From positions 1,364,001-1,428,000 of the forward strand of contig NTJI01000001.1 in NCBI GenBank assembly GCA_002307375.1: 64,000 nucleotides of DNA, written 5' to 3'. A program made the translations under genes and the position numbers. This stretch comes from Lysobacteraceae bacterium NML93-0399. GTDB taxonomy: Bacteria; Pseudomonadota; Gammaproteobacteria; Xanthomonadales; Xanthomonadaceae. The notes beneath the pieces are model-generated. The model searched no databases and was not told where the DNA came from. It worked only from the letters and a program-made list of their open reading frames with translations. Positions 26,807 through 37,271 of the stretch are shown one piece after another (position 1 is the first letter of the stretch; each line of letters begins with the position of its first letter).

Positions 26807-29104
26807 ATGTCGACATCATTCCTGTCGCGACGCGCCCTCGCGTACGGCGCGCCGCGCGTGCCCGCCCGCCTCACTGCCACGCTTCGTCCCGCGATGCCGC
26901 TCACCGCACGCCGGCCAAGTGAGCGACCGAAGCGTCTGCATTCCCATTTTTTAGCCCTGACGGTCACCGGTCTGCTGGCGCACGCCTTGCCCGGCAGCGC
27001 CCACGCACAGACACCGACGAAAGACGCCACGACGCTCGACGGCATCGAGGTGCGCGGGGTGCGATCGCCGCTCGACCGCGCCGCGACCGGCGCATCGCGA
27101 CTCGACGTCAGCGACCGCGACACGCCCGCCTCGGTGTTCCTTGTAGACCGGGACACGCTGGAGGCGCGCGGCGTGCGTTCGACGCAGGAGGCCCTGCACG
27201 CGATTCCGGGCCTCGTCGTCGCCGCGCCGCCCGGCCACGGCAACAGCGTCACCTGGCGCGGCTTTTCCGGCGCGCAGATCACGCAGCTGTTCAACGGCAT
27301 CGACGTGAAGTACGCCTCTATTGCCGCGCGCCCGGTGGATGCGTGGATCTACGAGCGTGTCGAGGCGATCGGCGGCCCGTCGAGCTTTCTGTACGGTGCC
27401 GGCGCGGTCGGTGGATCCATCAATTACGTCAGCCGTGTGGCCGGCTTCGACGCCGATACGGCCGGCGTCATGGCCAGCGCAGGCTCCCATGGCAGCAGCG
27501 TGCTGGCCGGCGGCATCAACCGGCAATTCGGCGGTGCGACGCCGAGCCAGGCGGCGCGTCTCGATGTCGCGCGCAGCACGCGCAACGGCTGGGTCGATGC
27601 CGAACGTCGCGAGGGCTGGACCGTCGCCGCGTCACTGGCCTCGCGCCTGACACCGACGCTCACACACACGCTGGCGCTCGAGTACCAGAACGAAGACAAC
27701 CGGCGCGTGTACTGGGGTTCCCCCGCGCTCGAGACAGGCGCCGGGCGTCTGTTCGCGCTGCCGGGAAGCGTGGGCCGCAACTACAACGTTGCCGACGGCT
27801 TCTACGGCCAGGAAGTCATATGGGGGCGCTCGCTGCTCGAATGGAACGCGGGCACGTTCAGCCGCGTGGTCAACACGCTCTATCACTACGACGCGCTGCG
27901 CGATTACCGGAACGTCGAGGTCTACCGCTGGGATCCCGCTCGTGGCGGCGTCGCGCGTTCGGGCGTGCTGCAGCAACGACACGCCCAGCAGGTGACGCGT
28001 AACAGGACCGATTGGCAGCGGGCCGGTACGCTCGGCGGACTGCCGACGCAGTGGACCGCCGGGCTCGAGCTGAGCCACAACCGGCAGACGCGCTTCCCGC
28101 AATCGATCGGCGGCGAAGTGGACCTGGTGCCGATTGATGCGCACGTCCCCGGGTACTTCTTCGACATTCCGGGCACCGCGCCTGGCCACCTCCCGGGCGC
28201 GACCAATCGGGTGCGCACTGTCGCGGCATCGGCCGAGAATCTCACGCAGCTGGGTGACCGGTTTGCACTGATGACCGGCGTGCGGCATGAGCGGATCGAT
28301 CTGGACGTCGTCAACCATCGCGCGCCCACCGCGACCAGCCCGGCGCGCTGGCCGCGCGATTACACATCGACCACCGGACGCATCGGCCTGACCGCCTCGC
28401 TGCCCCAGGATGCGAACGTGTATGTCCAGCTGAGTACCGCGGCGGATCCGCCTGCCGGCATCCTGTCGACGGCAGGCTTCTCGAGCCTGCGCGACTTCGA
28501 TCTCAGCCGGGGGCGGCAGCTGGAAGCCGGCAGCAAGTTCGATTTCGCCGATGGCCGTGCCAGCGCGACGCTGGCGGCGTATCGCATCGTGCGCGAGAAC
28601 CTCGCGATCTCAGATCCGTCCAACCCGGGTCAGACGCTGCCGGTGGGCCAGCAATCGGCGCGCGGCCTCGAAGCCACGCTCGACGTGCGGCCCATGGAGG
28701 CACTGCGGTTGCAGGCCAACGCCGGATGGGTCGATGCAACGCTTGATGATTTCTTCGAGACCATCGGCGGCACGCCGGTGTCGCGCGCCGGCAACCGTCC
28801 CACGAACACGCCGTCCCGCGTCGGCAATCTGTGGGTCGACTACGCGCTTTCGCCACGCTGGTCGGTCGGCGCCGATGTGCGCGCGGTGTCGGCGCGACAT
28901 GCGGACAATGCCAACACGCTCGAAACCTCGGGCTATGGGCTGTGGGGCGCGCATGTGCGCTGGCGTCCGACGCCACAATTCGCTGTGACCCTGCGCGGGC
29001 GCAACCTCGCAGACCGCACCTACGTCCAACACGCCATCGGCACGCAGATGGTCTACCTGGGCGAGCCACGCACGCTCGATATCGAACTGCGGGGAACGTT
29101 CTGA
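26807..29104 (+). CDS. TonB-dependent outer-membrane receptor
   Basis: A 765-residue receptor. After a signal region (LALTVTGLLAHALPGSAHAQ) comes the TonB-box-like TTLDGIEVRG, then the plug domain (TPASVFLVDRDTLEARG, EALHAIPGLVVA, NSVTWRGFSGAQITQLFNGI, IYERVEAIGGPSSFLYGAG) and a 22-strand barrel ending in ELRGTF. The substrate is unknown; the adjacent DUF2946 and PCuAC-like genes hint at a metal complex. ATG 26807 gives a long N-region, so the in-frame ATG at 26894 is an alternative start closer to the hydrophobic core of the signal. The next gene, a broken receptor, begins at its stop codon (TGATG). Confidence 0.9.
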   Translation: MSTSFLSRRALAYGAPRVPARLTATLRPAMPLTARRPSERPKRLHSHFLALTVTGLLAHALPGSAHAQTPTKDATTLDGIEVRGVRSPLDRAATGASRLDVSDRDTPASVFLVDRDTLEARGVRSTQEALHAIPGLVVAAPPGHGNSVTWRGFSGAQITQLFNGIDVKYASIAARPVDAWIYERVEAIGGPSSFLYGAGAVGGSINYVSRVAGFDADTAGVMASAGSHGSSVLAGGINRQFGGATPSQAARLDVARSTRNGWVDAERREGWTVAASLASRLTPTLTHTLALEYQNEDNRRVYWGSPALETGAGRLFALPGSVGRNYNVADGFYGQEVIWGRSLLEWNAGTFSRVVNTLYHYDALRDYRNVEVYRWDPARGGVARSGVLQQRHAQQVTRNRTDWQRAGTLGGLPTQWTAGLELSHNRQTRFPQSIGGEVDLVPIDAHVPGYFFDIPGTAPGHLPGATNRVRTVAASAENLTQLGDRFALMTGVRHERIDLDVVNHRAPTATSPARWPRDYTSTTGRIGLTASLPQDANVYVQLSTAADPPAGILSTAGFSSLRDFDLSRGRQLEAGSKFDFADGRASATLAAYRIVRENLAISDPSNPGQTLPVGQQSARGLEATLDVRPMEALRLQANAGWVDATLDDFFETIGGTPVSRAGNRPTNTPSRVGNLWVDYALSPRWSVGADVRAVSARHADNANTLETSGYGLWGAHVRWRPTPQFAVTLRGRNLADRTYVQHAIGTQMVYLGEPRTLDIELRGTF

Positions 29105-29480
29105 TGCGCACCTGCACGTCGCCATCCACTCGCGATTGCCTGCCTGCTGTGTGCGCCCGTCATGGCCCACGCCCAACAGTCGAGCGACTGCTGCCACCCG
29201 CGACGCGCTGCACGTGCAGGCCCAGCGGCTGCGCACGCACGATGTACCGCACGAGACCGGCAGCCGGCCCGATCTGCGCCAGCGCGAAGCGCCGGCGACG
29301 CTGCAGGTCATCGACCGCGAAGACATCGCGCGCATGGGCGCACGCAGCACGCGAAGTGTTCGAGCTGGCCGACGGCGCGATCGTCGGCAACATGCCCGGC
29401 AATCCGACCGTCGCCACCCTGCGCGGCTTCAGCGGCAACGCCATCCCTGTGCTGCACGATGGCGTGCCTGGCTGCGCCCG
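29104..29480 (+). pseudogene. Decayed second TonB-dependent receptor (plug-domain remnant)
   Basis: Receptor sequence is present but split over all three frames. A signal-peptide-like LAIACLLCAPVMAHAQQSS is in one frame, then RDALHVQAQRLRTHD and APATLQVIDREDIARMGARS in a second, then REVFELADGAIVGNMPGNPT and VATLRGFSGNAIPVLHDGV in a third. These are the normal consecutive parts of a receptor N-terminus, so at least two frameshifts have occurred. The barrel is absent: after 29480 no receptor sequence is visible. The ATG overlaps the stop of the intact receptor (TGATG), so it was once part of the same operon. The stretch to 29583 holds nothing else. Confidence 0.75.
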
Positions 29481-29583
29481 CGCCTGCCGGCGCTGCGCGT
29501 TCTGGATTGATGCAAGCGCGGATGCATGCCATTGCACGGACCGGGTCGCACCGGCCACGCGCGGGCGACGCTGCCGTCACCGG

Positions 29584-29760
29584 TCACTCCGGCTTCGCGT
29601 CGGGGTGTCTCGTGCGCCACGCGGCGAGCTGCTCGCGGTAGTACTGCAGCTCTTCGGCGTAGGTGTCGTGGACGCAGACCGCGCAACCGCTGTCGCAGCA
29701 ATCGCTGGGCAGCGGCGGCTCGGGCGGTTGCGGGCGCGGGTCGGGATCGGGCGTGGCCAT
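29584..29760 (-). CDS. Small Oxidored-like domain protein (Cys-rich)
   Basis: A 58-residue protein with a proline-rich start (PDPDPRPQPPEPPLPSD) and the motif DCCDSGCAVCVHDTYAEEL, matching the oxidoreductase-like N-terminal domain family of small proteobacterial proteins. The four Cys could bind a metal or cluster. Its start shares one base with the stop of the acid phosphatase gene upstream (TGATG), so the two are translationally coupled. Function is unknown. Confidence 0.8.
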   Translation of the reverse strand: MATPDPDPRPQPPEPPLPSDCCDSGCAVCVHDTYAEELQYYREQLAAWRTRHPDAKPE

Positions 29761-31737: not shown

Positions 31738-32754
31738 ATGCTCTTCAAGAACGTCGCCATCGCCGGCCTCGCCCATGTCGATGCGCCGCACCGTGTCACC
31801 AGCGACGACATCAACGCACGGCTGAAGCCGACCCTCGACCGCCTCGGCATCAAGACCGATGTGCTGCAGGACATCGCCGGCATCCACGCGCGGCACCTGT
31901 GGGACGACGACATGCTGGCCTCGGACGCGGCGACGATGGCCGGCCGCAAAGCGCTCGAAGATGCCGGCCTGGACGTCGGCAAGCTCGGCCTGCTGGTCAA
32001 CACCTCGGTCAGCCGCGACTACCTGGAGCCGTCCACCGCCAGCATCGTCGGCGGCAATCTGGGCATTCCCGATACCTGCCAGAACTACGACCTGGCGAAC
32101 GCCTGCCTGGCCTTCGTCAACGGCATGGACGTGGCCAGCCGCATGATCGAACTGGGCGAGATCGACTACGCCCTGGTCGTCGATGGCGAGACCGCGAATC
32201 TCGCCTACGAGAAGACCATCGAGCGTCTGTTGCGTCCGGAAACCACCGAAGAGGATTTCCGCAACGAACTGGCGACGCTGACGCTGGGCTGCGGCTCGGC
32301 GGCGATGGTGCTTGCCCGCGCGGATCTCGTGCCCGACGCGCCGCGCTACAAGGGCGGCGTCAGCCGTTCGGCGACCGAGTGGAACACCCTGTGCCGCGGC
32401 AACCTCGACCGCATGGTCACCGATACGCGCATGCTGCTGATGGAAGGCATGAAGCTGGCGCAGAAGACCTTCGTGGCCGCGCGCGAAGCGCTGGGCTGGG
32501 TGGTCGACGAACTCGACCAGTTCGTCATCCACCAGGTCAGCAAGGTGCATACCGGCGCCTTCGTGCAGAACTTCGGCATCGACCCGAGCAAGGTCCACAC
32601 GATCTTCGGCGAGCACGGCAACATCGGCCCGGCCTCGGTGCCGATCGTGCTCAGCAAGCTCAAGGAGCTCGGCCGCCTGAAGAAGGGTGACCGCATCGCC
32701 CTGCTGGGCATCGGCTCGGGCCTGAACTGCACGATGGCCGAAGTGGAGTGGTGA
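31738..32754 (+). CDS. oleA: OleA, head-to-head acyl-CoA condensing thiolase
   Basis: A 338-residue enzyme, near-identical in plan to Xanthomonas OleA, which joins two fatty acyl-CoAs into a 2-alkyl-3-ketoacid, the first step of long-chain olefin synthesis. Expected catalytic residues are present at the family positions: Glu97 (SRDYLEPS), Cys123 ([11 protein letters not shown]), His265 (FVIHQVS) and Asn295 ([10 protein letters not shown]). The usual partners oleB, oleC and oleD do not follow; instead a bidirectional terminator and the convergent phytochrome genes come next, with oleB 2.5 kb further on. Confidence 0.95.
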
Positions 32755-32782
32755 CACGCCGCGACGCGTGATCCCGGAAAGA

Positions 32783-32811
32783 AAAAAAGGCGCCCTGAGG
32801 GGCGCCTTTTT
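32783..32811. terminator. Bidirectional terminator between oleA and bphP
   Basis: The stem GGCGCCC/GGGCGCC with loop TGAG is flanked by AAAAAA on the left and TTTTT on the right, so it works as an intrinsic terminator in both directions, for oleA from the left and for the phytochrome gene from the right. Confidence 0.85.
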
Positions 32812-32829
32812 CATGGGCGGTCACGCCCT

Positions 32830-34542
32830 TCAGTCGTTGGCGACGCTCACCGTCCCGATCAGCGACTGCAGCTCGTTCTCGAGCTTGTTGATGCGATCCG
32901 ACAGCTGCGCCGCTTCCTGCGGGCTGACATGCACCAGGCCTTCGAGCAGTTCGGACAGCTGCAGCAGGCGCTCGCGCTGCTCGCGCACATCCAGCCGCGT
33001 GCGGCGCGCGCGCAGGTCGCCGATCTCGCTGTGCAGCGCGCTGCGGCGATAACGCTCGCGCAGCATCATGTGCAGGCGGCTGGCGACACGACGGTCGGCG
33101 TCGCTCCACGGCACGCTGCTGCCGCGCACGGTTTCGTGCCAGGCACCGAAGCTCGCACGCGGGCCGATCTTCTCCCCATCCTCGCTGACCACGAACGGCT
33201 CGTCGGGCCGACCGGCCCAGCGCACGTCCTCGATCTCCTCGCAGCGGAAGAAGAACAGCCATTCGTCGCGGGCCAGGTCGAGCGGCAGCGCGAGCACGCC
33301 GGCCAGGCCGTCGGCCTCGCCTTCGCTCCAGTCGACCGCGCGTTCGGTGCTCACCGGGCCGGTTCCGGTGTTGCTGCGGCGCAGCCACTCCAGCAGCCCC
33401 GGCAGGCGCTCCTCGTCGGGTGCGCGCCCGGCGCTGTACCAGTGGCCGCCCTGCGACAGGCCGACACCATCCGAGTCGAGCGCACGATTGAGCAGATCGA
33501 GTTCGCCCTGCAACGCCAACCGTGGATCTGCGGCGTTGTCCAGACGCAGCGCCAGCGTGTCGCGCACGCTGCGCGCACCCTCTTCGAGCGAGATCGCATG
33601 CTGCTGCTCGCGCGAGGCGACGCGCATCGACACAAACAGGCCGAACAGATCGGCCGCCGCACGCACACCCGGCGGCACCCGGCGCGCAGTGCGGTGATGG
33701 CAGGCGATCAGGCCCCACAAGCGACCGCCGGAGGTGATCGAGATCGACATCGACGCCACCACGCCCATGTTGGCGAGGTACTCCAGATGCACCGGCGAGA
33801 CGCTGCGCAGCGCCATCTGGCCCAGGTCGAGCGGCGCGCCGCGGCTGTCGCGGTCGGGCAGGATCGGCACCGGCACATAGGTGGCGTCCGGGATCACGCG
33901 GATGCGGTTGCGCAGGTACAGCTGGCGCGCCTGCACCGGAATGTCGGAAGCGGGATAGCGCAGGCCCAGGTACGCCGGCAATGCGGACTCGCGCGACTCG
34001 GCCACCACCTCGCCCGAATCGTCGTGGCGGAAGCGGTAGACCATGACCCGGTCGTAGCCGGTCAGCAGGCGGACCTGCTCGGCCACGCGCTGGTTGAAGT
34101 CGTCGATGTCCTCGCTGGCCGCGACCCGCGCAATCATGGTCTGTGCCACCACCGTCGGCGAACGCTCGCCGGCGCTGCGCGGCTGGGGCTCGATCTCGAT
34201 GTGCACCAGGCCGTCGGCCACGTGCACGCTGATGTCGCACAGGTGCGCCATCGGGCCGATGTTGCCCACCGCGGCGCGCTGTGGCGGCGCGCCGGGTTCG
34301 CCGAAGCCGATCGTCTCGGCGATGGCCTGGATCAGATCGTCGGTGAGGAACTCGCGCAGCGAGTGCCGCAGCATGTCCTCGGGCGTGGCGCCGAGCAGCG
34401 ACTCGACGTTGGCCGACACATGGCGGATCGTCCAGTCGGGCAGCTGACAGGTGATGAGATAGCCGTGCGGCTGGATCGCACCGGAGAGATGGATCGGTTC
34501 GTTTGCGCACGCCTGGAGCGCACGATCGAGCGAGGGATTCAT
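32830..34542 (-). CDS. bphP: Bacteriophytochrome with PAS-GAF-PHY core and short coiled-coil end, no kinase
   Basis: A 570-residue red/far-red photoreceptor that should bind biliverdin. The PAS domain carries the chromophore Cys12 (QACANEPIHLSGAIQPHGYL), the GAF domain the PASDIP motif at 197-202 and the ACHH pocket near 281-283, and the PHY tongue the PRASF motif at 461-465 followed by a conserved Trp. After about residue 485 there is only a charged, helix-forming segment (EIGDLRARRTRLDVREQRER, then INKLENELQSLIG) of 80 residues. No histidine kinase, PAS9 or GGDEF/EAL output is encoded here. It starts within the stop of the heme oxygenase gene (ATGA), so its biliverdin supplier is co-expressed. 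Confidence 0.93.
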   Translation of the reverse strand: MNPSLDRALQACANEPIHLSGAIQPHGYLITCQLPDWTIRHVSANVESLLGATPEDMLRHSLREFLTDDLIQAIAETIGFGEPGAPPQRAAVGNIGPMAHLCDISVHVADGLVHIEIEPQPRSAGERSPTVVAQTMIARVAASEDIDDFNQRVAEQVRLLTGYDRVMVYRFRHDDSGEVVAESRESALPAYLGLRYPASDIPVQARQLYLRNRIRVIPDATYVPVPILPDRDSRGAPLDLGQMALRSVSPVHLEYLANMGVVASMSISITSGGRLWGLIACHHRTARRVPPGVRAAADLFGLFVSMRVASREQQHAISLEEGARSVRDTLALRLDNAADPRLALQGELDLLNRALDSDGVGLSQGGHWYSAGRAPDEERLPGLLEWLRRSNTGTGPVSTERAVDWSEGEADGLAGVLALPLDLARDEWLFFFRCEEIEDVRWAGRPDEPFVVSEDGEKIGPRASFGAWHETVRGSSVPWSDADRRVASRLHMMLRERYRRSALHSEIGDLRARRTRLDVREQRERLLQLSELLEGLVHVSPQEAAQLSDRINKLENELQSLIGTVSVAND

Positions 34543-35123
34543 ACGGCAGGCTCCTGCGGGGGACCAGGCAGCGCGTCGAAGCTGCGCTCGAAACACGACT
34601 TTACCAGCCCGAATGCGTCGCGCGCGCCCTGGAGCAGGGCCGCAGGGCGGGTCGGCGACGCCGCACGTGCGGCGAGACGATCGAGGACATTGCGCCATTC
34701 GCTGCCGAGAGCATGGCGCCCGAGAAAGCGCGCGCCGTGCTCTTCGGCATGACCGAGCGCCTGCGCACCGCGCAGCAGATGGCGTGCACCCAGGCTGCTG
34801 CCGGCCATCACGTATTCCCAACCCAGGCGTTCGTCGGGATCGGCGAGCAGGCCGCGGATGCCCGATGGCGGCAGCGGCGTGAGCCGCAACGTGCGCAGGT
34901 CGTCCGACAACCAGAACGAAAAACGCGGCGCGATTCCCACCACGATTTCGTAGTCCGCGGCAAAACGGTGCATGCCGACCAGGTAACGCGCATAGGCATG
35001 CGGCGTCCCGAGTCCGTCGCTGAAGCAGGCGTCAACGGACGTATGCAGGTCGGCAGTACCGGAACGCAGCCAGTGGCGCAAATCATTGTGATCGGCGCTC
35101 TGCTTGCGTGCAGTCGTATTCAT
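34539..35123 (-). CDS. bphO: Heme oxygenase supplying biliverdin to the phytochrome
   Basis: A 194-residue biliverdin-forming heme oxygenase. The proximal heme ligand is probably His27 in LRSGTADLHTSVD, and the distal helix GWEYVMAGSSLGARHLLRG has the usual Gly-rich form. It opens heme to biliverdin, CO and iron. The four-base overlap with bphP marks a bphO-bphP operon. The 165 bp to oleB, which runs away on the other strand, must hold both promoters. Confidence 0.93.
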   Translation of the reverse strand: MNTTARKQSADHNDLRHWLRSGTADLHTSVDACFSDGLGTPHAYARYLVGMHRFAADYEIVVGIAPRFSFWLSDDLRTLRLTPLPPSGIRGLLADPDERLGWEYVMAGSSLGARHLLRGAQALGHAEEHGARFLGRHALGSEWRNVLDRLAARAASPTRPAALLQGARDAFGLVKSCFERSFDALPGPPQEPAV

Positions 35124-35288
35124 ATTTCCAGCATACGCCGATGGGGGCCGAGCTTCCGCCCGGTAGCGCGCTTAGCGGGCGTTTCCTGGCCGTGTGATGG
35201 CGTCGAATTACCACGCGTTTCGAGGCGTGACGCCGGCTGCCGACTACAATGCAACGCATTCATCGCAGCCTTCGGTGCTTCAAGTCCC

Positions 35289-36191
35289 GTGCAGCTCCCT
35301 GACTATCCCTTCAGCGGCCACCGCTTCGAAGCGCGCCCCGGCGTGCAGATGCATTATCTCGACGAGGGCCCGCGCGACGGCGAGATCGTGCTGATGCTGC
35401 ACGGCAATCCGTCGTGGAGTTACTACTGGCGCCACCTCGTGCTGGGCCTGCGCGACCGCTACCGCTGCATCGTGCCCGACCACGTGGGCATGGGCTGGTC
35501 GGACAAGCCCGACGATGCCCCGAACGCCTTGCCGCGCTACGACTACACGCTGCAATCGCGCGTGCAGGACGTCGGCGCCCTGCTCGAGCATCTGGGCATC
35601 GATGGGCCGGTGACGCTGGCGGTGCACGACTGGGGCGGCATGATCGGCTTCGGCTGGGCGCTCAGCCATATGGCGCAGGTCAAGCGGCTGGTGATCACCA
35701 ATACGGCCGCGTTTCCGCTGCCGACCGACAAGCCGATGCCGTGGCAGATCGCCCTCGGGCGCGATTACACCGTCGGCGAGTGGATCATCCGCGGATTCAA
35801 TGCGTTTTCCGGCGGCGCGTCGTATTTCGGCGTCGAGCGGCGGATGCCGGCCGATGTGCGCCGCGCCTATGTCGCGCCCTATGACAGCTGGGCCAACCGC
35901 ATCTCCACCGTGCGCTTCATGCAGGACATTCCGCTGGGGCCGAAGGACCGCGCCTGGCCGCTGCTCGAAGCGGCCGGCCAACGCCTGCCCGAGTACGCTG
36001 ACCGCCCGGCGTTCATCGGCTGGGGGCTGCAGGATTTCGTGTTCGACCACCATTTCCTCGCCGGTTTCCGTGCGGCACTGCCGCAGGCCGAGGTGATGGC
36101 GTTCGAGGATGCCGGGCACTACGTGCTCGAAGACAAGCATGCGGTGCTGGTACCGGCGATCCGCACGTTCCTGGACGCGCACCCGCTCTGA
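35289..36191 (+). CDS. oleB: OleB, beta-lactone decarboxylase (alpha/beta hydrolase)
   Basis: A 300-residue alpha/beta hydrolase of the haloalkane dehalogenase superfamily. In the olefin pathway OleB removes CO2 from the beta-lactone made by OleC to give the cis-olefin. Its start QLPDYPFSGHRFEARPGVQM and body match Xanthomonas OleB, with nucleophile Asp114 (AVHDWGGMIGFG) and His277 (EDAGHYVLEDKH) at the same numbers. GTG 35289 gives this numbering; the longer upstream frame is antisense to bphO. It is separated from oleA by the bphO-bphP pair, and oleC/oleD are not downstream. Confidence 0.93.
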   Translation: MQLPDYPFSGHRFEARPGVQMHYLDEGPRDGEIVLMLHGNPSWSYYWRHLVLGLRDRYRCIVPDHVGMGWSDKPDDAPNALPRYDYTLQSRVQDVGALLEHLGIDGPVTLAVHDWGGMIGFGWALSHMAQVKRLVITNTAAFPLPTDKPMPWQIALGRDYTVGEWIIRGFNAFSGGASYFGVERRMPADVRRAYVAPYDSWANRISTVRFMQDIPLGPKDRAWPLLEAAGQRLPEYADRPAFIGWGLQDFVFDHHFLAGFRAALPQAEVMAFEDAGHYVLEDKHAVLVPAIRTFLDAHPL

Positions 36192-36265: not shown

Positions 36266-36700
36266 CTAGGCGCGCAGCATGGCGGCCGGCATTGCAGGAA
36301 GCGGCGACGGCGCGTCGGCCAGGTCGATCGCATCGACCACCACCACCTCGATCTTCGGTGTGATCCAGTCGGCGGCAGTGAGCGCCGGCAGGCCATGCGC
36401 GAGGCGTGCCTTGTCGCACTGCGCGCTGGCCTGGCCGTGTTCCCACGACGCCAGCACGTCACGACAGGGCTGGGGACGAAGCGCGTGGATCGTGCACCGC
36501 GAGCGGCGGCCGATATCGGCGTCGAGTGCGATGCAGCGCGGGCTCGCTTCCCAGGTGCCGCGCATGGCGACTTCATGCGGACTCACCGGCTCGGTCGAAG
36601 CATGCGGCACCAGGCCGCCGGCGGCGTCGGTCTCCATCCAGTGCATACGCACCCGGTAATGGGCACAGCAGGCGCCGCAGGTCAGGCACGGATGGGGCAT
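36266..36700 (-). CDS. YkgJ-family cysteine-cluster protein
   Basis: A 144-residue protein with the Cys cluster CLTCGACCAHYRV at the N-terminus and further Cys in SPRCIALDADIG, RSRCTIHALRPQPCRDV, the pattern of YkgJ/DUF3109-like proteins thought to bind zinc or an iron-sulfur cluster. The role is unknown. ATG 36700 places the cluster at the very start, as in relatives. It lies downstream of a thioesterase gene on the same strand, with a 106-bp gap. Confidence 0.85.
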   Translation of the reverse strand: MPHPCLTCGACCAHYRVRMHWMETDAAGGLVPHASTEPVSPHEVAMRGTWEASPRCIALDADIGRRSRCTIHALRPQPCRDVLASWEHGQASAQCDKARLAHGLPALTAADWITPKIEVVVVDAIDLADAPSPLPAMPAAMLRA

Positions 36701-36806
36701 GGTCACGACCCCGGGGATCGCAGGCGCAGGAGGGAGCGCGGATTCTTCGCAGTCCGGGGCGTCGGCGCAAGTCCCGCGTGTGCGGTAAGCGTCGGCGACG
36801 CTGGCC

Positions 36807-37271
36807 TCAGGCTGCCGGCCGCCGGATCGCGACGTAGCGCGCCTGCATTTCGGTCGCGGTGCCGCCATCGGGCAGGGCGACGCGCGCGCACAGCGTGACG
36901 CGCGCGCGACCGCGTTCGCGCAGGGTCCGGGCGAACGTATCCCAGTCGCCATCGGCATCGAGCACCGCTTCCGCCTCGAGGTCGTCGAGCAGCGGCGCGC
37001 GGTAGCGCACGGTGGAATCGGCCACGTAGACCTCCGCGTCCAGCCCGGCCTGCTCCACGCGCAGAGTCACCAGCCCCCAGGCGGCGAGCGTCATCACCGA
37101 AACCAGGCTGCCGCCGAACGCCGACCCCTTGTCGTTGACGTGGGCGGCCAGCGGTGCGTGCAGGCGAAGGGCCTCGCCGTCATAGCCGGCCACGGAAATG
37201 GCCATCGCCGCCACCGGCGGCATCGAGGCGTAGTACGTCTCCAGGGCGCGGAGCGAATCTTCAAGCGTCAT
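36807..37271 (-). CDS. Hotdog-fold thioesterase, YiiD C-terminal type
   Basis: A 154-residue single-domain thioesterase. Segments NDKGSAFGGSLVSVMTLAAW and ADSTVRYRAPLLDDLEAEA are characteristic of the YiiD C-terminal domain, here standing alone without the acetyltransferase half seen in E. coli YiiD. Substrate unknown. Start ATG 37271 is used; an upstream in-frame GTG (37295) is possible. Divergent from hemD with 76 bp between starts. Confidence 0.8.
   Translation of the reverse strand: MTLEDSLRALETYYASMPPVAAMAISVAGYDGEALRLHAPLAAHVNDKGSAFGGSLVSVMTLAAWGLVTLRVEQAGLDAEVYVADSTVRYRAPLLDDLEAEAVLDADGDWDTFARTLRERGRARVTLCARVALPDGGTATEMQARYVAIRRPAA

Follow-up and report, generated by a model that had tools for sequence, protein, structure and literature searches.

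A kinase-less bacteriophytochrome gene pair between oleA and oleB, and a probably complete but scattered olefin pathway, in a Luteimonas genome

Gene order at the oleA-oleB locus

The window, which is the whole 64 kb stretch of DNA that was analysed, corresponds to C1:1364001-1428000 of a 3.57 Mb genome (G000) that was assembled into 7 contigs. The host genus is Luteimonas, and the best named matches of its bacteriophytochrome are Luteimonas proteins, among which that of L. terrae reaches 90%. Two genes of the olefin pathway, oleA and oleB, are both open and intact in the window, and they are parted by two genes on the opposite strand. oleA (31738-32754, plus strand) encodes a thiolase-like, long-chain acyl-CoA condensing enzyme of 338 residues. 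bphP (32830-34542, minus strand) encodes a kinase-less bacteriophytochrome of 570 residues, composed of a PAS-GAF-PHY core and a tail of about 60 residues. bphO (34539-35123, minus strand) is the first gene of the bphO-bphP pair; it encodes a heme oxygenase of 194 residues, and its reading frame overlaps the start of bphP. oleB (about 35289-36191, plus strand; the GTG start is inferred) encodes an α/β hydrolase of about 300 residues, a beta-lactone decarboxylase.

bphP and oleA are convergent, their reading frames being 75 bp apart, whereas bphO and oleB are divergent and flank an intergenic region of 165 bp (35124-35288). The earlier note had described oleA and oleB as split by a convergent light-sensor pair; the split is confirmed by the positions and the Pfam domains, but the word convergent applies to bphP and oleA only. 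Downstream of oleB is one gene of the PF03692 (CxxCxxCC) family (36266-36958, minus strand; true start uncertain), a companion of the ole genes, whose product scored 34.6 bits against the Pfam cut-off of 23. It adjoins oleB in relatives too, as bphO adjoins bphP, and PF03692 is named in the ole region of X. campestris in the available part of PMC7064751.

Elsewhere in the window, one TonB-dependent receptor ends at 29104, and TonB-receptor plug-like fragments were seen by eye after it, at 29136-29640; two frames of this stretch were compared with Pfam and gave no match.

OleA, OleB and the distant oleC-oleD pair

OleA contains Glu97, Cys123, His265 and Asn295, which form the Cys-His-Asn triad and the catalytic Glu; OleB contains the nucleophile Asp114 and His277, in keeping with a haloalkane-dehalogenase-like hydrolase. 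All six residues, to which the catalytic roles in the two enzymes are assigned, are as given in the earlier note. OleA scored 461 bits (cut-off 285) against NF006720, a model that is named 3-oxoacyl-ACP synthase III and is not specific for OleA. Residues 1-338 of OleA match PDB chain 3fk5, which we take to be X. campestris OleA, with an E value of 8.9e-185. OleB matches Abhydrolase_1 of Pfam at 102.6 bits. As no NCBIfam model was passed by OleB (the best gave 147.5 bits, cut-off 265), its identity rests on the fold family, the residues and the synteny. Compared with four relatives, the dN/dS values (NG86) are 0.06-0.08 for oleA, 0.08-0.12 for oleB, 0.14-0.17 for bphP and 0.19-0.30 for bphO; therefore, all four genes of the cassette are kept, bphO least strictly.

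oleC and oleD had been noted as missing. Both are indeed outside the 64 kb, but they are present in the genome as an intact, adjacent pair on the minus strand, oleC at C1:1450712-1452385 and oleD at C1:1449640-1450635. The pair begins 21.6 kb beyond the window end, and its apparent absence arose because the window edge falls before it. The alternative that the two genes are elsewhere, also raised in the note, is thus the one that the genome search upheld, at 50.5 kb from oleB. OleC passed NF045786, the NCBIfam olefin beta-lactone synthetase model, with 1017 bits (cut-off 900); OleD, a 2-alkyl-3-oxoalkanoate reductase, passed NF042422 with 648 bits (cut-off 580). The distance between oleB and oleC is 50,526 bp and the two genes are on opposite strands; the usual single four-gene cluster, which is not essential, is not formed here.

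Seven AMP-binding matches were found in the genome, one of which (C1:1451177-1452316) falls within the oleC reading frame, and the pair described above is the only set of OleC- and OleD-like genes that the genome search found. At E 1e-50, the genome gave one single match each for OleA, BphP, OleB and OleC, and no second oleA, oleB or oleC was found at this or any stricter threshold in the whole genome. With the threshold set at E 0.001, the OleA search gave two more matches, of 28-32% identity over part of the protein, which were taken for other ketoacyl synthases. With one strict match each, the copies in the window are the working set; redundant ole copies were rejected, and no oleC-oleD operon with a second oleA and oleB, which the note had named as grounds for redundancy, came to light.

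The bacteriophytochrome lacks an output domain

PAS_2, GAF and PHY domains, which make up the photosensory core, are all present in BphP (Pfam). Cys12, in the sequence CANEPIHL ahead of the PAS domain, is in place as the biliverdin-binding residue and is kept in at least 90% of 36 rows. The protein also carries the DIP and PRxSF motifs, and its best Foldseek match is 9eut (E 6.0e-47). Pfam identified neither an output domain, histidine kinase or other, nor a DNA-binding domain in BphP; the protein stops at residue 570, and it did not pass NF041576 (292 bits, cut-off 1040). The genes at 41 homologous loci, some of which represent the same genome twice, stop no more than 30 residues from the match, and the kinase-less type occurs in several genera of the family.

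The tail of BphP, which is encoded by the 3' end of the gene (32830-33035), is conserved; Leu526 is invariant, and His538 and others are kept in at least 90% of 36 rows. In the AlphaFold2 model, with a mean pLDDT of 79.7, the tail is built of two helices (508-534 and 541-569), predicted with low confidence (block pLDDT 46-69). When one profile of kinase-less BphPs was aligned with the full-length kinase phytochromes 9eut and 9rcc, the alignment spanned the tail as far as position 563. The hhalign probability of the whole region against the HWE DHp is 96.4%, but this alignment takes in the shared end of PHY, and the comparison was therefore repeated with the tail only. The tail alone scored 20.4 with a probability of 24%; 30 column-permuted controls scored at most 14.9, and the reversed tail scored 10.6. 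In this alignment, the phospho-acceptor His falls on one Glu of BphP. Because the tail-only probability is just 24%, we hold a DHp origin at possible to probable, and the tail may represent a decayed HWE DHp hairpin. BphP is a red/far-red sensor, and its two-helix tail most likely conveys the signal by contact with another protein.

BphO scored 28.5 bits against PF01126 (cut-off 23), with a match that covers only profile positions 114-203 of 204. His27 in the sequence LHTSV, presumably the proximal His, is present, as expected of a heme oxygenase.

Gene order in Luteimonas

With a threshold of E 1e-20, phytochromes were found in 38 of the 52 Luteimonas genomes and none in 14. The close-type BphP (69-100% identity) is present in 31 of the 52. 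The synteny seen in the window extends to these close relatives; in 30 of the 31 genomes, bphP sits between oleA and oleB on one contig and on the opposite strand. The remaining genome is G097; its bphP neighbours oleB, and its oleA is found on a different contig. A distant type of BphP (41-44% identity) was noticed in seven Luteimonas genomes (G151, G155, G168, G175, G181, G183 and G184). In all seven, it is either on a different contig from the ole genes or separated from them by 1.6 Mb or more.

The gap between bphP and oleB is no larger than 1.7 kb in any of the 31 close-type genomes, and in 28 of them it measures 701-772 bp. Three genomes deviate, namely G097 (1680 bp), where one UPF0114 gene (L021:9141-9779) is located between oleB and bphO, and G162 (213 bp) and G169 (314 bp). 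No bphO was found at the G169 (L132) and G162 (L133) loci, where gene order is otherwise kept; bphO is between bphP and oleB in the other 29 genomes. The distance between oleA and bphP is below 500 bp in 15 of 30 genomes and ranges from 1.1 to 18.8 kb in the others. Some of these gaps are approximate, because the composite query gave some oleA matches that extended beyond the end of the gene, by between a few and some tens of residues.

Both oleB and oleC are on one contig in 49 Luteimonas genomes. Their gap exceeds 8 kb, at differing distances, in 15 genomes, 11 of which have the two genes on opposite strands; it is at most 3.5 kb in the remaining 34. With G158 added, where oleC is on another contig, 16 genomes were counted as displaced. 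The oleC end of G171 was estimated from one merged oleB-oleC match, which makes its 48 bp gap unreliable, and oleC was matched only in part in G150 and G165.

Gene order in the wider family

Using strict cut-offs, we detected oleA in 146, oleB in 147 and oleC in 148 of 149 genomes of the family. Outside Luteimonas, 139 genomes have both oleA and oleB, on different contigs in 30. When both genes share one contig, they are less than 2 kb apart in 78 genomes, 2-5 kb in 4, 5-20 kb in 16 and more than 20 kb in 11, and hence at least 5 kb apart in 27 of 109. oleB and oleC are within 2 kb of each other in 118 of 140 non-Luteimonas genomes. These counts indicate that oleA commonly stands apart in the family and that separated oleCD is rarer. 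An in-frame TGA was noticed within the oleC match of three other genomes of the family (G021, G066 and G143).

A phytochrome match was obtained in 49 non-Luteimonas genomes; 20 rows of 33-39% identity were dropped, and the other 29 BphP genes were compared. Thirteen share one contig with oleA, 1 more shares it with oleB only, and 15 share it with neither. None of the 29 was measured within 20 kb of the ole genes, and the nearest is 20.6 kb away. As far as this survey goes, the oleA/bphP/bphO/oleB order is a Luteimonas peculiarity. We also inspected 20 neighbourhoods, picked among the most similar of the 49. As judged from gene calls, bphO adjoins bphP in 19 of these loci, one UPF0114-like gene is nearby in 7 (the family was tested in one) and one large peptidase-like gene is present in 15. 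The simple codon-usage caller behind these calls overlooked some genes, one of them being bphO in the window.

Origin of the arrangement

In G070 and G144 of the same genus, oleA, oleB, oleC and oleD are contiguous. In G028 and G123, bphP-bphO directly adjoins oleBCD; in G097, one gene lies between them. The UPF0114 gene of G097 suggests that the bphO-bphP pair came from an older setting with UPF0114 as neighbour. The spacing of oleA and bphP is about 19 kb in G028 and about 12 kb in G123. In G028, the stretch between them encodes a molybdopterin oxidoreductase and an ANTAR regulator, consistent with nitrate assimilation, and the oleA/oleB junction therefore looks like a repeated insertion site. 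By eye, the G123 stretch resembles the nitrate-assimilation-like genes of G028 (loci L017, L018 and L020).

In the genome studied here, the neighbours that oleA and oleD have in relatives, namely the genes for an M16-like peptidase and a small lipoprotein and the UbiJ/UbiB-like genes, are found near oleCD and not near oleAB. The names of these neighbours (M16 peptidase, DUF4156, UbiJ, UbiB and peptidase-like) are presumptive, read from the sequence or taken from general background. The placement of the flanking genes argues that the oleA-bphP-bphO-oleB-PF03692 block separated as one unit. In the BphP tree, the 31 Luteimonas BphPs form one clade (support 100/100) against five outgroup rows. The 16 genomes with displaced oleC form one group in this tree, with support of 82/86 (the usual threshold is 95), and are one group in 80% of the bootstraps. 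In the oleB tree, the displaced genomes need two changes and form one group in 10% of the bootstraps. Since 82/86 is below 95 and the oleB tree disagrees, a single displacement is likely rather than proven.

Judged from gene order and the trees, one ancestral insertion of bphO-bphP plus rearrangement is the likeliest history. The ancestral order would have been oleA-oleB-(PF03692)-oleC-oleD, with all genes together. The bphO-bphP pair would have entered the oleA/oleB junction once, in the ancestor of the 31 carriers among the 52 Luteimonas genomes; then, in the sub-group of the genome studied here, the oleA-bphP-bphO-oleB-PF03692 block would have parted from oleC-oleD. Pure chance rearrangement fits less well with the steady proximity of bphP and oleB (31/31).

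Taken together, we consider it very probable (about 0.92) that the OleABCD pathway is complete and ordinary, and that rearrangements of the genome dispersed its genes in one Luteimonas lineage. The gene identities by family models, the positions, the synteny and the single strict matches carry this reading; the single insertion, the inversion-type steps, the enzyme function and the signalling mode of BphP are what we infer. The four enzymes would work in trans despite their scattered genes; OleA would condense acyl-CoAs, OleD would reduce the product, OleC would make the beta-lactone and OleB would release the olefin. Some of these roles are general background on the pathway. The others are given in the available part of PMC7064751. 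This removes one false puzzle, as no new chemistry is required, and illustrates the extent to which ole gene order can decay without the loss of any gene.

Light control and other explanations

The idea of light-linked olefin control was also put forward in the earlier note, and what stands of it is the constancy of the neighbourhood, since bphP has remained next to oleB in 31 Luteimonas genomes; beyond that, the sequence lends it no support. For 17 of these 31 loci, we aligned the stretch between bphO and oleB and read the alignment by eye. One TACAATG box, which is -10-like, precedes oleB in 16 of the 17 loci, in the same columns in 15, and one AGCATA block, in the window 6 bases from the bphO ATG, is located close to this ATG in 12. 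The stretch between the box and the block is unconserved, and no shared conserved operator was visible in the 17 aligned loci.

If the bphP-oleB linkage had been selected, red/far-red light would control the transcription of oleB, and perhaps of oleA, through BphP, and membrane olefin would follow light. The constant bphP-oleB proximity fits this explanation, given that oleC can be anywhere between tens of bases and many kb from oleB, and oleA likewise from bphP; so do the divergent bphO and oleB, here 165 bp apart, and the purifying selection on BphP (dN/dS 0.14-0.17 against four relatives). However, no shared conserved operator was seen in the 17 loci, and Pfam shows neither a DNA-binding nor a kinase domain in BphP. 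Outside Luteimonas, no BphP of the 29 was measured within 20 kb of ole, although 15 of them share no contig with it; G162 and G169 keep the gene order without bphO, and the second half of the pathway, oleCD, has moved elsewhere. The conserved neighbourhood alone lends weak support to light control, and we regard such control as unlikely. Its narrower form, in which the kinase-less BphP, via its decayed DHp-like tail alone, light-controls the olefin genes and was hence fixed beside oleB across Luteimonas, is more doubtful still. We propose instead that BphP happens to neighbour the ole genes.

The earlier note had also suggested that OleA acts without OleC and OleD and makes ketones. oleCD is absent inside the window, and, according to the available part of PMC7064751, the OleA product decarboxylates spontaneously to a ketone during assays. 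This suggestion is unsupported by the genome, which contains intact oleC and oleD, and OleC was matched in 148 of 149 family genomes; ketone formation as the function of the locus is thus very improbable. An assembly error that separated oleAB from oleCD is hardly credible, for although the genome is in 7 contigs, all four ole genes are on one 1.8 Mb contig, and the large oleB-oleC gaps recur at differing distances in 15 of 49 genomes of the genus.

With the complete, rearranged pathway as the preferred explanation, it is the phytochrome, unusual for its want of a kinase, that merits further study. Its conserved tail suggests one partner protein still to be found. Among the papers listed in searches of part of the open-access literature, none dealt with a Luteimonas bacteriophytochrome, with an output-less phytochrome of this type or with a phytochrome-olefin link.

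Comparison with known systems

The catalytic residues of X. campestris OleA and OleB, with their roles as generally understood, are the same as those of the proteins studied here. The oleABCD cluster of X. campestris and its relatives, as presented in the available part of PMC7064751, comprises the same four genes and the PF03692 companion. Different from that cluster, bphP-bphO parts oleA and oleB here, and oleCD is 50 kb away on the other strand. The same part of PMC7064751 reports a similar ole region in Luteimonas, and one Luteimonas OleA that condenses C10-C16 acyl-CoA.

Like Pseudomonas aeruginosa BphP (9eut), Luteimonas BphP possesses the PAS-GAF-PHY core, the N-terminal Cys, DIP and PRxSF. 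Unlike 9eut, it has no catalytic kinase domain and ends about 70 residues past PHY in a two-helix tail. In two further genera of the family, the BphPs of G018 (L042) and G011 (L043) are of the HWE-kinase type; they share 47.5% and 46% identity with this BphP and are also located beside bphO. Their HWE kinase is kept, as indicated by Pfam HWE_HK in L042 and the ELNHRVKN motif in L043, whereas the Luteimonas type is without it. RpBphP1 of Rhodopseudomonas palustris, as described in the available part of PMC6899989, has one additional PAS9 domain, unlike Luteimonas BphP. As in Luteimonas BphP, however, its output is not a histidine kinase and its C-terminus forms a two-helix element; RpBphP1 complexes with a gene repressor.
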